From IMG/VR virus record IMGVR_UViG_3300042894_003543, positions 1 through 22,477 of that record: a DNA stretch of 22,477 bases, one strand, 5' to 3'. A program made the position numbers and the translations under genes. Origin of the DNA: a virus. This document shows, piece by piece, positions 6,809-20,133 of this stretch (position 1 is its first letter; every line of letters begins with the position of its first letter). Below the pieces are notes generated by a model. The model was not told the origin of the DNA. It saw only the letters and a program-made list of their open reading frames with translations, and ran no database searches.

Positions 6809-6844
6809 TAGTCAGTTTTTAGTGTGAAAGATCACGAAGTTTCA

Positions 6845-8323
6845 ATGGCAAATAGTCAACTTGATAAGACTATTGCTAATGCTAAAAAACTAAAAGCAAG
6901 ACTTGGCAAGAAGGAGAAGAATATTCCTGCTTGGGTTCAAGCTAAGATTACTGATACTGACCATAACATGGATGCTGCTGCATCATATTCTGTTAAAGAA
7001 GATTTGAGAAAGTGGTTTGGTAAAGGTGGTGAAGGTGGAGTTGGTGGTGGTGGATGGGATAGATATAATACAAAAGGTGAAAGAATTGGTAAATGTGCTC
7101 GTGAACCTGGTGAACCAAAACCAAAATGTTTATCTAAAGAAAAAGCAGCAAAAATGTCAAAGGACGAAATTGCTTCTGCAGTGAAAAGAAAACGTAAAGA
7201 AGATCCAGTAGCAGATCGTTCAGGAAAAGGAGGAAAACCAATTATGTCATCCAACAAAATTAATGAGCAAGATGCACAAGAATATCAGAAGTTTGATCGT
7301 AGAGTAAATACTGCAATGGCAGCAAAAACACCAGATCTAAAAATCAAACTCTTAAAACTTGCTGGACAAGCACATCCATCTTCTCAAGTCAAGACTGTAG
7401 AGCAGTTTATGGAAGCGTGCTGGAAAGGATATAAGCAAGTTGGAATGAAGAAGAAGGGTAAAAGAATGGTTCCTAATTGTGTTCCAGAAGAAACTGAACT
7501 TGATGAAATGATCGCATTAGCAGCTCCAATTGTAAGGGGAGTTGCAGCTGTATCTAAAGTTGGACAAGGTGTTGCAAAAGCAGGACAAGCATTAAAAACT
7601 GGAGTACAAAAAGTAGGTTCAAAAGTTAAAGATATTACTAAAGTAGCACCAAAAGTTCCAGGAGATACTGAAAAAGAACCTTTGGATGCAAAAAAGGCAA
7701 AAGAACCAGATTGGAAAAAAGGATTAAAGAAAGCAGGTGAAACTGCAAAATCCGCAATAAAAACTACTGCTGGTGGTTTTGCTTCAATGTATGAACCAAG
7801 AGAAGAATATATTATGGAGAAGAATGTTCCAACAAATCCTTCTCTATGGTCTAAAGCAAAAGCACAGGCAAGAGCAAAGTTTGACGTATATCCATCCGCT
7901 TATGCCAATGGATGGGCTGCCAAATGGTACAAATCCAAAGGTGGCGGATGGAAGACTGCTGCAAAGGAGAGCTATGACGCACGACAACTACTTTCTTTTA
8001 GTGATTTTAGGAAGATCTCTAACAATAGCATCAGCAATGAGGAGGAAACAGTAACTGAAGTCGCAGCATGGCAACGTAAAGAAGGAAAAAATAAAGAGGG
8101 TGGATTAAACGAGAAAGGAAGAAAATCTTACGAAAGAGAAAATCCTGGTAGTGATCTCAAAGCACCAGTCACTACACCACCATCAAAATTAAATCCAAAT
8201 TCAAAAGCAGCAAAAAGAAGAAAATCTTTTTGTGCAAGGATGGGAGGAAATCCTGGTCCTATGAAAGATGAAAAGGGTCGTCCAACAAGGAAAGCATTAT
8301 CTCTTCGCAAATGGAATTGTTAA
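6845..8323 (+). CDS. Lysine-rich modular protein between the terminase genes, function unknown
   Basis: 492 codons from ATG 6845. A GTG at 6824 would add seven residues but has no ribosome binding site and no MAN- opening like the neighbouring genes. I see at least four cyanophage modules. Residues about 1-130 contain SVKEDLRKWF, a glycine run and GKCAREPGEPKPKCLS with paired Cys. About 175-215 contain EQFMEACWKGYKQVGMKKKG and MVPNCVPEE. About 330-372 contain PSLWSKAKAQARAKFDVYPS and ANGWAAKWYKSKGGGW. The C-terminal 85 residues contain AAWQRKEGKNKEGGLNEKGR and RRKSFCARMGGNPGPMKDEK. A Lys/Ala-rich helical linker (about 226-315) joins them. The strong positive charge suggests nucleic-acid binding, perhaps as an internal or packaging-associated protein; that is inference only. 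I cannot assign a function. Confidence 0.8.
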   Translation: MANSQLDKTIANAKKLKARLGKKEKNIPAWVQAKITDTDHNMDAAASYSVKEDLRKWFGKGGEGGVGGGGWDRYNTKGERIGKCAREPGEPKPKCLSKEKAAKMSKDEIASAVKRKRKEDPVADRSGKGGKPIMSSNKINEQDAQEYQKFDRRVNTAMAAKTPDLKIKLLKLAGQAHPSSQVKTVEQFMEACWKGYKQVGMKKKGKRMVPNCVPEETELDEMIALAAPIVRGVAAVSKVGQGVAKAGQALKTGVQKVGSKVKDITKVAPKVPGDTEKEPLDAKKAKEPDWKKGLKKAGETAKSAIKTTAGGFASMYEPREEYIMEKNVPTNPSLWSKAKAQARAKFDVYPSAYANGWAAKWYKSKGGGWKTAAKESYDARQLLSFSDFRKISNNSISNEEETVTEVAAWQRKEGKNKEGGLNEKGRKSYERENPGSDLKAPVTTPPSKLNPNSKAAKRRKSFCARMGGNPGPMKDEKGRPTRKALSLRKWNC

Positions 8324-17192: not shown

Positions 17193-18596
17193 ATGTTTAA
17201 TTCTGCTGCACTGCAGAAGAAGTGGGCTCCTCTTCTAGAGGCAGAAGGACTTGATGGAATCAAGGACAGCCACAGAAGAGCAGTTACTGCCCAACTTCTC
17301 GAAAACCAAGAAAGATTTCTAAGAGAAGAGCGTGCTTTCCTAACTGAAGCACCTCCAACAATCAATACTGATCCTTCCTCAACTGGCAACCCAGGTTTCT
17401 CTGGTTCAGCTGTTTCTCCAGTTGCTGGTTTCGATCCAGTTCTAATCAGCCTAATTCGTCGTGCAATGCCTAACTTGGTCGCTTATGACCTAGCAGGTGT
17501 TCAACCAATGAACGGTCCAACAGGTCTTATCTTTGCGATGAGAACCCGTTACGACAACCAGAGCGGTACTGAAGCATTCTTCAACGAGCCAGATTCTGCA
17601 TTCTCTGCTCAGAACAGTGCTGCTTCGCTAACCCAAGGCGATTACACTGGTGGTTCTGACGACGGCATCAGCGTTGGTTTTGGTACAACTGCACAGACAG
17701 GAACCAATCCATCGATCCTAAATGGTGGTGCTGGTCGTGACTACAACGTAGCACAAGGTTTCAGCACACAAGCACTAGAAGCACTTGGTGATAACGCATC
17801 TTCAAACGATTTCCGTGAGATGGCTTTCTCAATCGAGAAAGTTAGCGTTACCGCAAAGTCAAGAGCACTCAAAGCTGAGTACTCGCTAGAACTAGCACAA
17901 GACCTTAAGGCAATCCACGGTCTTGATGCTGAAGCTGAACTAGCAAACATCCTATCGACTGAAATTCTTGCTGAAATCAACCGCGAGATTATCCGTACAC
18001 TATACAAAGTTGCAGAACCAGGTGCTCAAACCAACGTTGCAACTGCTGGTGTATTCGATCTAGACGTTGATTCCAACGGTCGTTGGATGGTTGAGAAGTT
18101 CAAGGGTCTAATGTTCCAGCTAGAGCGTGATGCTAATGCTATCGCTCAGAGAACTCGTAGAGGAAAGGGCAATATCATCCTTTGCTCTGCTGACGTTGCT
18201 TCTGCACTTGCTGCTGCTGGTCAACTAGACTACACCCCAGCACTATCTGCAAACCTAAACGTTGATGATACTGGTAACACCTTTGCTGGTACTCTAAACG
18301 GTCGCTTCAAGGTATACATCGATCCATTCGCTGCAAACCTAAGCGCAGATCAGTACTACGTCATGGGTTATAAGGGTTCAACTCCTTACGACGCAGGTAT
18401 CTTCTACTGCCCATACGTTCCACTACAGATGGTTCGTGCAGTTGGTCAGGATACTTTCCAACCAAAGATTGGATTCAAGACACGCTACGGCATGGTCGCA
18501 AATCCATTCGCAGAAGGAACTGGCGTTGGTGCAGGTCGCATTGCCGAGAACACCAACCGTTACTACAGAAGAGTAAAGGTACAAAACCTAATGTGA
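17193..18596 (+). CDS. gp23: Major capsid protein gp23
   Basis: 467 codons; T4 gp23 is 521. Family segments include PVLISLIRRAMPNLVAYDLA, GVQPMNGPTGLIFAMRTRY (the usual gp23 primer region) and the C-terminal FQPKIGFKTRYGMVANPFAE. The HK97-type fold forms the hexamer lattice of the head. A candidate gp21 maturation site is LTE|A at residues 50-53, which would remove an N-terminal peptide of 52 residues. Codon choice differs visibly from the neighbours: AAC, TTC, ATC, TAC and GGT are favoured over the AT-rich alternatives, as expected for the most abundant virion protein. CGGAG precedes the start, and a strong terminator follows. Confidence 0.97.
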   Translation: MFNSAALQKKWAPLLEAEGLDGIKDSHRRAVTAQLLENQERFLREERAFLTEAPPTINTDPSSTGNPGFSGSAVSPVAGFDPVLISLIRRAMPNLVAYDLAGVQPMNGPTGLIFAMRTRYDNQSGTEAFFNEPDSAFSAQNSAASLTQGDYTGGSDDGISVGFGTTAQTGTNPSILNGGAGRDYNVAQGFSTQALEALGDNASSNDFREMAFSIEKVSVTAKSRALKAEYSLELAQDLKAIHGLDAEAELANILSTEILAEINREIIRTLYKVAEPGAQTNVATAGVFDLDVDSNGRWMVEKFKGLMFQLERDANAIAQRTRRGKGNIILCSADVASALAAAGQLDYTPALSANLNVDDTGNTFAGTLNGRFKVYIDPFAANLSADQYYVMGYKGSTPYDAGIFYCPYVPLQMVRAVGQDTFQPKIGFKTRYGMVANPFAEGTGVGAGRIAENTNRYYRRVKVQNLM

Positions 18597-18614
18597 TCTT
18601 GGATCACAATTATC

Positions 18615-18645
18615 AGGACCTCCTTACAAAAGGGGGTCCTTTTTT
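18615..18645 (+). terminator. Strong rho-independent terminator after gp23
   Basis: An 11-bp stem with one G-T pair (AGGACCTCCTT at 18615-18625 with AAGGGGGTCCT at 18630-18640) and loop ACAA, followed by a T-run through 18645. It should end the late gp22-gp23 transcript. Confidence 0.92.
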
Positions 18646-18675
18646 ATTGTCTACCAATAGATAGTAAAGCAGAGT

Positions 18676-18703
18676 TTGACATTGCCATGGACTTGCTTAT
18701 AAA
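18676..18703 (+). promoter_or_regulatory. Candidate sigma70-type promoter ahead of PTOX
   Basis: -35 TTGACA (18676-18681, perfect consensus), 16-base spacer, -10 TATAAA (18698-18703, 5 of 6). It begins about 31 bases after the gp23 terminator and would start transcription near 18710, inside the 28-codon ORF and about 60 bases before PTOX. Confidence 0.5.
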
Positions 18704-18773
18704 AGCAGTAATAATTTATGGATCAATTGTATATTTTGTGTATTGGGGTCTTCATAACGGATATCCATCATGA
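18687..18773 (+). CDS. 28-residue predicted membrane peptide upstream of PTOX
   Basis: ATG 18687 to TGA 18773. The product is almost one hydrophobic segment (LLIKAVIIYGSIVYFVYWGL) followed by a short polar tail (HNGYPS), so a single membrane span is likely. Its stop overlaps the PTOX start as ATGA, the arrangement of a translationally coupled pair. AAAGCAGAG lies upstream and could serve as a weak Shine-Dalgarno. A sigma70-type promoter overlaps its first codons, so that promoter would not make this peptide; expression would need read-through. At this length the ORF could be fortuitous, but the matching small membrane ORF on the other side of PTOX supports it. Confidence 0.5.
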   Translation: MDLLIKAVIIYGSIVYFVYWGLHNGYPS

Positions 18774-19270
18774 AAAAACTCAACGATGTACTATTGGGAA
18801 TAACGGTAACAATCATTGATTTTCTCTACCAGGATCTTCCAATACAAAGATTTTGGGTGCTTGAGACTATTGCTAGAGCACCTTATTTTGCCTTTTTAAG
18901 TGTGCTTCATCTCAGAGAAAGCCTTGGTTTGAGAACGGAAGCACATTACTATCTGATGAAAGAACACTTCGCACAGACAGTCAATGAAACTGAACATCTC
19001 ATCGAAATGGAAAATCGCGGTGGTGCAGATCGTTGGTATGACCGTTTTATTGCTTATCACTTGGTTCTCATCTATTATTGGATTTTGGTGGGTTATTATT
19101 TTATTAATGCTAAGTCTGCTTATCACTTGAATGCAGGTATTGAGTTTCATGCAACTGAAACTTATCTAGATTACTTCTGGGATCATCAGGAAGATACAAA
19201 GATCGCTGAGATTGCAGTTGATGAAATGAACCATTATGTTGAACTAACCAGAGCAATGGAGATGATCTAA
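18770..19270 (+). CDS. PTOX: Plastoquinol terminal oxidase (PTOX, alternative oxidase family)
   Basis: 166 codons. Di-iron oxidase that passes electrons from plastoquinol to O2, reducing it to water, bound to one face of the thylakoid membrane. The family opening FWVLETIARAPYFAFLSVLH (28-47) is clear, as are the GGADRWYDRFIAYH and YYWILVGYYF segments. All six expected iron ligands can be placed: Glu32, Glu73 and His76 (ETEH), Glu125 (GIE), Glu152 and His155 (EMNH). The Glu125-to-Glu152 spacing is only 27 residues; plant and trypanosome relatives have over 50 there, so a C-terminal loop segment is missing. The gene is presumably host-derived and may relieve over-reduction of the electron chain during infection; this is inferred. 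It sits between late genes gp23 and gp3, which is odd for a metabolic gene. Confidence 0.92.
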   Translation: MKKLNDVLLGITVTIIDFLYQDLPIQRFWVLETIARAPYFAFLSVLHLRESLGLRTEAHYYLMKEHFAQTVNETEHLIEMENRGGADRWYDRFIAYHLVLIYYWILVGYYFINAKSAYHLNAGIEFHATETYLDYFWDHQEDTKIAEIAVDEMNHYVELTRAMEMI

Positions 19271-19377
19271 TGGGTGATTTTCCTTGGGGAGTTTTTACCA
19301 TACTTTCCTGTGGATTATTATTCACTTGTTATTGCATCTATTATATTTTAAAACTAGCACACGACGAGATGAGATGA
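19270..19377 (+). CDS. 35-residue predicted membrane peptide downstream of PTOX
   Basis: ATG 19270 shares its A with the PTOX stop (TAATG) and the ORF ends at TGA 19377. The product has a short N-terminal polar part (MGDFPW), one hydrophobic segment (VFTILSCGLLFTCYCIYYIL) and a charged end (KLAHDEMR), so it is a likely single-span membrane protein with the charged tail on one side. It has two closely spaced Cys in the span (CYC) and one more earlier. Close coupling to PTOX suggests co-expression at a membrane, possibly as a partner or anchor; this is inference. No family is recognised. Confidence 0.65.
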   Translation: MGDFPWGVFTILSCGLLFTCYCIYYILKLAHDEMR

Positions 19378-19380
19378 TCA

Positions 19381-19542
19381 ATGCCTAGAAATCAACTTAC
19401 GAAAGATCAAATTAAAATAGATATTTTGAAGATCAAACAAGATCTTTACAGGGAACATATTCGCCATGACATGGACATGAAGGGTTTGGCAAATAGTTAT
19501 ATTGATAGAATTTTGAATAAGATCGAGGAATATCGCTACTAA
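19381..19542 (+). CDS. Small charged helical hypothetical protein (53 aa)
   Basis: ATG 19381 to TAA 19542, 3 bases after the preceding small membrane ORF. The product is rich in Lys, Ile, Asp, Arg and Leu and looks entirely helical (KDQIKIDILKIKQDLYREHI; ANSYIDRILNKIEEYRY). It resembles small soluble ORFs found near gp3 in cyanomyoviruses, though I cannot name a family. It could act with gp3 or with the PTOX cluster; the tight spacing to the left favours the latter for expression. The start has no strong Shine-Dalgarno, so coupling to the upstream ORF is plausible. An ACTAAATA octamer (19538-19545) overlaps its stop. Confidence 0.65.
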   Translation: MPRNQLTKDQIKIDILKIKQDLYREHIRHDMDMKGLANSYIDRILNKIEEYRY

Positions 19543-19545
19543 ATA
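19538..19545 (+). promoter_or_regulatory. Possible late promoter variant ACTAAATA upstream of gp3
   Basis: Resembles the CTAAATA variant of the late octamer, 21 bases before the gp3 start. Weak evidence beyond position. Confidence 0.3.
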
Positions 19546-19566: not shown

Positions 19567-20133
19567 TTGTCCAATAATCCTTGTACCTTACAGCAAGTTT
19601 CAAATAAAAACTTTCTGTCATTAGGTGGGTTCAAACTTATTATTAATAGGTGTCCAAAGGTAGATTTTCTTTGCAACAAAGCAAATTTACCAGGGATGAC
19701 ATTGGGCAGTGCAGTACAATCAACATATCTAAAAGACATTCCTGTTCCAGGAGACAAACTTAGATATGAAGATTTGACAATTAACTTTATGGTAGATGAG
19801 GAATTAGAAAACTATATCCAAATCTACCAGTGGATGACATCATTGGGTTATCCACAATCAGTTGCACAATACTCTGAATTACAAACAAAAAATAGATTTT
19901 ATCCAAATACGGATGCTGATGATCCGTATAGTGAAAGATCTGATGCTACATTATTAATTTTGAACAGCAATTATCAAACTGCTGGAAAGGTAATTTTTAA
20001 AGATATATTTCCAACATTTCTTTCGGGAATTCCTTTCGATGCAACGTTGCAGGAGCAGCAATACTACAGCGCAACTTGCACATTCCGCTATACTATTTTT
20101 GATTTGATTGACATTGATGGAAAAGAAGTCTAG
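19567..20133 (+). CDS. gp3: Tail completion and sheath stabiliser protein gp3
   Basis: 188 codons; T4 gp3 is 176. The TTG start is chosen because GGGAAG lies 5 bases upstream and no in-frame ATG occurs near the 5' end. Tail-tube-fold signatures: NFLSLGGFKLIINRCPKVDF (14-33), LPGMTLGS, and the YEDLTINFMVDEELENYIQI / YQWMTSLG segment, which parallels the FIVDEELKSWIGMYEWM stretch of T4 gp3. gp3 caps the top of the tail tube and helps stabilise the sheath with gp15. Its neighbours uvsY and uvsW follow, a usual cyanomyovirus arrangement. Alternative: another tube-like protein such as gp54, less likely given its size and the VDEEL..Y...YQWM match. Confidence 0.85.
   Translation: MSNNPCTLQQVSNKNFLSLGGFKLIINRCPKVDFLCNKANLPGMTLGSAVQSTYLKDIPVPGDKLRYEDLTINFMVDEELENYIQIYQWMTSLGYPQSVAQYSELQTKNRFYPNTDADDPYSERSDATLLILNSNYQTAGKVIFKDIFPTFLSGIPFDATLQEQQYYSATCTFRYTIFDLIDIDGKEV

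Follow-up and report, generated by a model that had tools for sequence, protein, structure and literature searches.

Cyanophage genes for the plastoquinol terminal oxidase (PTOX) appear to code in two reading frames at once. Codon choice shows statistically that a +1 frame embedded in phage PTOX is maintained by selection, its putative product being a short hydrophobic peptide. PTOX, gnd, and zwf are textbook auxiliary metabolic genes of cyanophages, and in the annotations searched the embedded coding layer of these genes is unrecorded. The explanation that we favor, and regard as likely when its parts are taken together, combines a gene-exchange slot between gp23 and gp3, a PTOX with the active site and fold of an alternative oxidase (AOX), and a second coding frame within PTOX, with similar frames in gnd and zwf.

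The window, i.e., the whole stretch of DNA analyzed here, comprises the 22,477 nucleotides of IMG/VR record IMGVR_UViG_3300042894_003543 and holds the structural module of a T4-like cyanophage, running from gp13 to gp23 and then through gp3, uvsY, and uvsW. According to the searched text of PMC3037559 (Sullivan 2010; Millard 2009 cited therein), petE, PTOX, gnd, and zwf form a mobile cassette in the g15-g18 hyperplastic region of cyanophages, and PTOX was proposed to relieve an over-reduced plastoquinone pool through oxygen reduction. The PTOX of the window belongs to the same family and shares with that cassette its compact packing and the occurrence of mobile metabolic genes within the structural module. 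It differs in being adjoined by gp23, three small open reading frames (ORFs; sA, sB, and sC), and gp3, without petE, gnd, or zwf. Small transmembrane (TM) partners and embedded +1 ORFs are likewise unmentioned in the searched text of that paper.

Organization of the island

PTOX lies among virion genes, as an earlier note on this DNA had stated: gp23 ends at 18596 and gp3 starts at 19567. The gp3 start codon is apparently TTG, likewise in close relatives. The tight packing that the note described is also borne out, with overlaps of 4 nt between sA and PTOX (ATGA) and of 1 nt between PTOX and sB (TAATG), and a gap of 3 nt between sB and sC; the ORFs are packed in a way that would suit translational coupling. 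Two tiny predicted membrane ORFs and one helical ORF were correctly recognized as well, since sA and sB each have one hydrophobic or TM segment and sC is helical. The coordinates are collected in Table 1.

Table 1. Features of the gp23/gp3 island, in window coordinates
Feature	Position	Strand	Description
Intrinsic terminator of gp23	18615..18640	+	11-pair stem and T tract; left island edge
AATAGATA	18656..18663	+	Weak T4-late-promoter-like motif 5' of sA; candidate
sA	18687..18773	+	28-aa ORF, one hydrophobic segment; 'YWGLxNAYP' family
PTOX	18770..19270	+	Plastoquinol terminal oxidase, 166 aa; phrog_4235, Pfam AOX
Embedded ORF in PTOX	18984..19130	+	+1 frame, 48 aa, hydrophobic; MKLNISSKWKIAVVQIVGMTVLLLITWFSSIIGFWWVIILLMLSLLIT
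sB	19270..19377	+	35-aa ORF, one TM; phrog_25130/814
sC	19381..19542	+	53-aa helical ORF; phrog_566
CTAAATA	19539..19545	+	gp3 late-promoter remnant fused to sC stop; right island edge

All four ORFs, sA, PTOX, sB, and sC, are genuine and under purifying selection. They were found again in further IMG/VR contigs, with pooled pN/pS values, computed over non-independent sequence pairs, of 0.15 for PTOX, 0.46 for sA, 0.37 for sB, and 0.40 for sC; sB matches phrog_25130 at 6e-12 and sC matches phrog_566 at 6e-11. The small ORFs were also considered as homologues of known oxidase subunits, a candidate that we rejected as no Pfam or NCBIfam match rose above the cut-off.

The strong terminator that the note placed between gp23 and the island holds up (z of -4.3 for the fold of the 66 nt from 18590 to 18655) and is kept in relatives both with and without the island. 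TATAAATA or NATAAATA stands 5' of other structural genes in the window, and at the empty junction of one relative (L183) the late-promoter motif TATAAATA lies directly 5' of gp3, where the window has CTAAATA. At the other end, a motif like AATA[CG]ATA is present in close relatives with sA and missing from the empty sites of L180 and L183. As AATAGATA has two mismatches to TATAAATA, its reading as a late promoter is suggestive only. Matches to a sigma-70 promoter in sA were near the number expected by chance.

PTOX as an enzyme

PTOX matches phrog_4235 at 5.6e-75 and the Pfam AOX model with 49.3 bits (cut-off 22.7). PTOX ligands had been pointed out in the earlier note; E32, E73, H76, E125, E152, and H155 are invariant in the phage and host sequences aligned, and we take them to be the AOX di-iron ligands. 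An AF2 model (pLDDT 91.7) has the AOX four-helix-bundle fold, with trypanosome alternative oxidase chains as the best fold matches (TM-score ~0.82, probability 1.0, E ~0.01); a PTOX profile run against PDB sequences gave no match. From what is known of the family, PTOX would, in the infected cell, reduce oxygen with electrons taken from plastoquinol. The idea that the phage enzyme is shortened relative to the host's and so needs an anchor was rejected, as Prochlorococcus PTOX aligns across all 166 residues.

A probable second coding frame within PTOX

The embedded ORF was first seen in a list of ORFs, i.e., post hoc. Its ATG, formed by the codons for Asn72 and Glu73, opens a +1 frame of 48-52 codons that would give a hydrophobic, probably single-TM peptide. 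The openness of the frame far exceeds what synonymous shuffling permits. Among 85 phage sequences there are no +1 stops in PTOX codons 73-117, against ~200 expected from codon usage, and elsewhere in phage PTOX such stops are not depleted. The choice of codon depends on the base that follows. Val and Ile xTA codons in the region stand 44 times before C or T and once before A or G, and Val and Leu xTG codons stand before A in 0 of 165 cases, as +1 stops predict, which identifies the +1 frame as the one constrained. Parsimony on the PTOX tree, which spans deeply split phage clades, places only 2 of 87 synonymous changes inside the ORF among those that create a stop, compared to 282 of 512 outside it; corrected for usage, 2 are seen and 30.6 expected, with the p-values of such tests assuming independent changes on an estimated, moderately supported tree, as the gp3 tree used below also is.

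The boundaries of the frame are kept as well. PTOX sequences were split by motif into two clades, for which 'freshwater-like' and 'marine' are motif labels rather than habitats and in which a few sequences are mis-binned. The start is ATG in 42 of 42 and 67 of 72 members (109 of 114 overall), and the length is 48 aa in 41 of 42 and 52 aa in 66 of 72, with a length of 50 aa for the P-SSM4 group. The stop is particular to each clade and retained within it, made with four different Leu codons in one and with GTA or ATA in the other, and the median KD17 hydropathy of the peptides is 2.79 and 2.09. Codon heterozygosity over the ORF is low in both clades (0.35 versus 0.63 and 0.44 versus 0.70) and level over the homologous host stretch (0.50 versus 0.49), the reduction in synonymous variation ending where the ORF ends. 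Host genes mostly have ACG in place of the start and contain interior +1 stops, although some are nevertheless open, and the tree-based test finds 7 stop-creating changes versus 8.8 expected. Among isolates the frame is open in 12 of 12, with an ATG start in 11.

With an open frame, a retained start and stop, low synonymous variation confined to its length, and hosts that do not maintain it, the embedded ORF is probably a case of overprinting. By eye, no Shine-Dalgarno-like motif precedes its ATG. The ORFs embedded in PTOX have no match in PHROGs and none above the cut-off in Pfam; among the tblastn matches listed, only PTOX is annotated over the stretch, and no report of such ORFs turned up in our search of open PMC literature, which does not prove that there is none.

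Embedded frames in gnd and zwf

The other two enzyme genes carry +1 ORFs similar to that of PTOX. Stop-creating +1 changes number 3 versus 71 expected in phage gnd and 0 versus 18 in phage zwf, and the stop-free stretches encode hydrophobic peptides; these windows are the best per gene, which flatters their p-values, but the controls fall far short of them (petE, uvsY, gp3, uvsW, gp21, gp22, and gp23, with a best +1 p of ~1e-4 over all windows). Syn9 gnd (L003:6610-7647) has two conserved +1-frame hydrophobic ORFs, the first of which starts with ATG in 77 of 77 sequences; phage gnd is, as we take it, of a short type with which the host enzyme is not comparable. Syn9 zwf (L003:7644-9089) has one such ORF, which has its terminal stop in every phage sequence (15% expected) and is phage-specific by the host control, as host zwf shows no avoidance (127 +1 stops versus 113 expected). 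Over its 5'-terminal alignment columns 1-45, phage zwf shows very low synonymous variation as well (0.13-0.38, compared to 0.69 gene-wide).

The avoidance of +1 stops in PTOX could reflect a constraint on the nucleic acid or its codons, such as preferred codons at the catalytic site, RNA structure, or a regulatory site, rather than a protein. The stretch does fall in a conserved part of PTOX, hosts are partly depleted of +1 stops by raw count (22 versus 66 expected), Ser TCA is absent from the stretch, and antisense stops are avoided too, so that an additional constraint may act there. We nevertheless consider such a constraint unlikely, given that the next-base dependence fits +1 stops exactly, that the end stop is retained in PTOX through several synonymous codons and in zwf through ATA or GTA in 42 of 42 phage sequences (6.4 expected) and 0 hosts, that RNA folding over the ORF is ordinary (z -0.7 to 1.6 in seven sequences), and that the synonymous constraint, not seen in hosts, stops at the ORF end. 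The reverse strand at 18984-19130 (PTOX codons 73-120) is as stop-free as the +1 frame, with 1 versus 29.9 expected in reverse frame -0, and the conserved element might then be an antisense ORF. This reading is hardly credible, however: Val and Ile xTA and Val and Leu xTG codons, which give no antisense stops, are avoided solely at positions where they would generate a +1 stop, and in zwf the antisense p is 0.015 versus 1.5e-8 for +1.

Overprinted viral genes, reviewed in PMC8227390, consist of a new frame over an older gene with both under selection, and the PTOX ORF, read as a protein-coding frame, would be of this kind. Unlike the genes reviewed, the putative products here belong to a large dsDNA phage and lie within host-type metabolic genes, and apparently three enzymes of one cassette are affected. 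If the overprinting is real, the enzymes by themselves do not suffice to interpret how PTOX, gnd, and zwf are conserved in phages, mutating or expressing any of them affects two products together, and cyanophage genome annotation overlooks a class of proteins.

Gene exchange at the gp23/gp3 junction

The location of PTOX at gp23/gp3 is unusual, since in the isolates examined it is found elsewhere, mostly in the g16-g18 region and often near petE, gnd, or zwf. The gp16-gp17 slot of the window, unlike that of phages with the known cassette, contains a single 499-aa ORF (6824-8323), apparently related to T4-GC119. T4-GC119 itself was considered as the small TM partner of the cassette and rejected, being a protein of 495 aa in S-SM1.

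We compared the junction across IMG/VR contigs with a gp3 90-100% identical to that of the window, and among these relatives (gp3 at least 90% identical) it takes five states. The full order sA-PTOX-sB-sC recurs among close relatives; others have sA-PTOX-sC (L080), sA-sB-sC without PTOX (L086 and L179), or sA-sC without PTOX (L085 and L177). The junction is empty, at 84 nt, in L180-L183, and the contig of L183, 172 kb long, yielded no PTOX. More distant relatives with sA-sC and no PTOX are L088, L098, L212, and L214. Many relatives have sC alone; in the wider clade most junctions have it, irrespective of PTOX, and it is the last gene before gp3 in the lineage of the window. On the moderately supported gp3 tree, these states imply a minimum of 3 changes for PTOX, 4 for sA, 3 for sB, and 7 for sC. 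In other contigs quite different genes occupy the slot.

Comparison thus shows the junction to be, by its gene content, a slot for gene exchange, bordered by the terminator of gp23 and the late promoter of gp3, because PTOX, sA, sB, and sC occur in differing combinations or not at all. PTOX and sB are gained and lost there, sA and sC being present with or without PTOX. The slot is a second recombination site within the structural module, beside g15-g18. In two relatives (L184 and L185) a 64-aa phrog_593 ORF lies between sA and sC, and phrog_593 ORFs follow PTOX in other phages. In further phages (L152, L154, L155, and L107) the slot has ORFs resembling, by eye, fructose-bisphosphate aldolase and peptide deformylase, and in L107 a long ORF of no recognized kind.

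Small TM ORFs adjoining PTOX

Partners of PTOX were defined as ORFs no longer than 76 aa, with a single hydrophobic segment called by a hydropathy threshold, that start between -11 and +12 nt from the PTOX stop. Such an ORF is present at 35 of 52 dereplicated viral PTOX genes (about two thirds), compared to a background of ~2% (10 of 450 genes from three large cyanophage contigs). Among control genes of the retrieved loci it is present at 26 of 741, gnd or zwf making up many of the 26, and among Prochlorococcus PTOX genes at 0 of 80. By sequence, the partners group into several families. In a reverse search, in which small TM families were located without regard to PTOX and 80 loci each were reported, phrog_1096 lies directly 3' of PTOX in 43, sA lies 5' of it in 19, and sB is near it in 10. 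The sB family also directly follows PTOX in other genomic contexts, and sA is found between petE and PTOX in phages of the 'marine' motif label. P-SSM3 and P-SSM4 have after PTOX an unannotated 34-aa ORF with weak similarity to phrog_814, and a small ORF at this place lies within a gap of the annotation in P-SSM3, P-SSM4, S-CAM9, and S-TIM54; none follows PTOX in L080, S-SM1, S-H38, or S-RSM4. The association of small TM ORFs with PTOX is a real trend, non-obligate and least so for sB.

The earlier note had gone further and taken sA, PTOX, sB, and sC for what looks like a self-contained membrane cassette inserted at the junction. On this reading the four would be co-inherited and inserted as a whole, and small ORFs would be expected there only where PTOX is present. 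The 4-nt and 1-nt overlaps speak for this, as do the enrichment 3' of PTOX and the other contexts in which sA abuts the PTOX start (L015, L051, L295, and L038, the last with sB close downstream, before gp17). The note's reading is thereby partly supported, but insertion as one unit is very improbable: close relatives show most of the partial combinations, small ORFs stand at the junction without PTOX in L085, L086, L177, L179, and others, sA and sC do so even in distant relatives, and sB is mostly away from PTOX. A more serious contender, only a little short of an even chance in our judgment, is that the adjacent TM ORFs are generic cyanophage accessory genes that share recombination slots with PTOX and have no functional link to it. 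Members of two families are also found after gnd or zwf, most sB loci lack PTOX, and partners switch 22 times on the 52-tip, weakly resolved PTOX tree. Against it stand an enrichment 3' of PTOX that greatly exceeds the genome-wide rate and is absent from hosts, and the phrog_1096 loci, found independently of PTOX. This alternative is compatible with the exchange slot, the PTOX enzyme, and the embedded frame of the explanation that we favor.

Small single-TM subunits, such as CydX and PetG/L/N, occur in electron-transport complexes. The phage peptides resemble them in size (30-50 aa), in having one TM helix, and in their linkage to a quinol-handling enzyme; they differ in that no Pfam or NCBIfam similarity was found and partner identity is freely swapped, and complex formation is an analogy only. 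Within the favored explanation, the overprinted and adjacent peptides may work alongside the electron-flow cassette at the thylakoid or plasma membrane of the host, for instance as interchangeable accessory or anchoring peptides for the oxidase or related complexes. Such a joint membrane role is the weakest step and, in our view, doubtful. As a broader proposal, which we put forward tentatively and hold to be nearly as probable as its opposite, cyanomyoviruses would have overprinted phage-specific membrane-peptide genes in PTOX, in gnd (twice), and in zwf, forming with the TM genes between the enzymes a membrane layer that aids the cassette in infection. In S-SCSM2R (L417:2986-3860), PTOX itself has a C-terminal extension of ~40 aa, which overlaps an sB-like frame.
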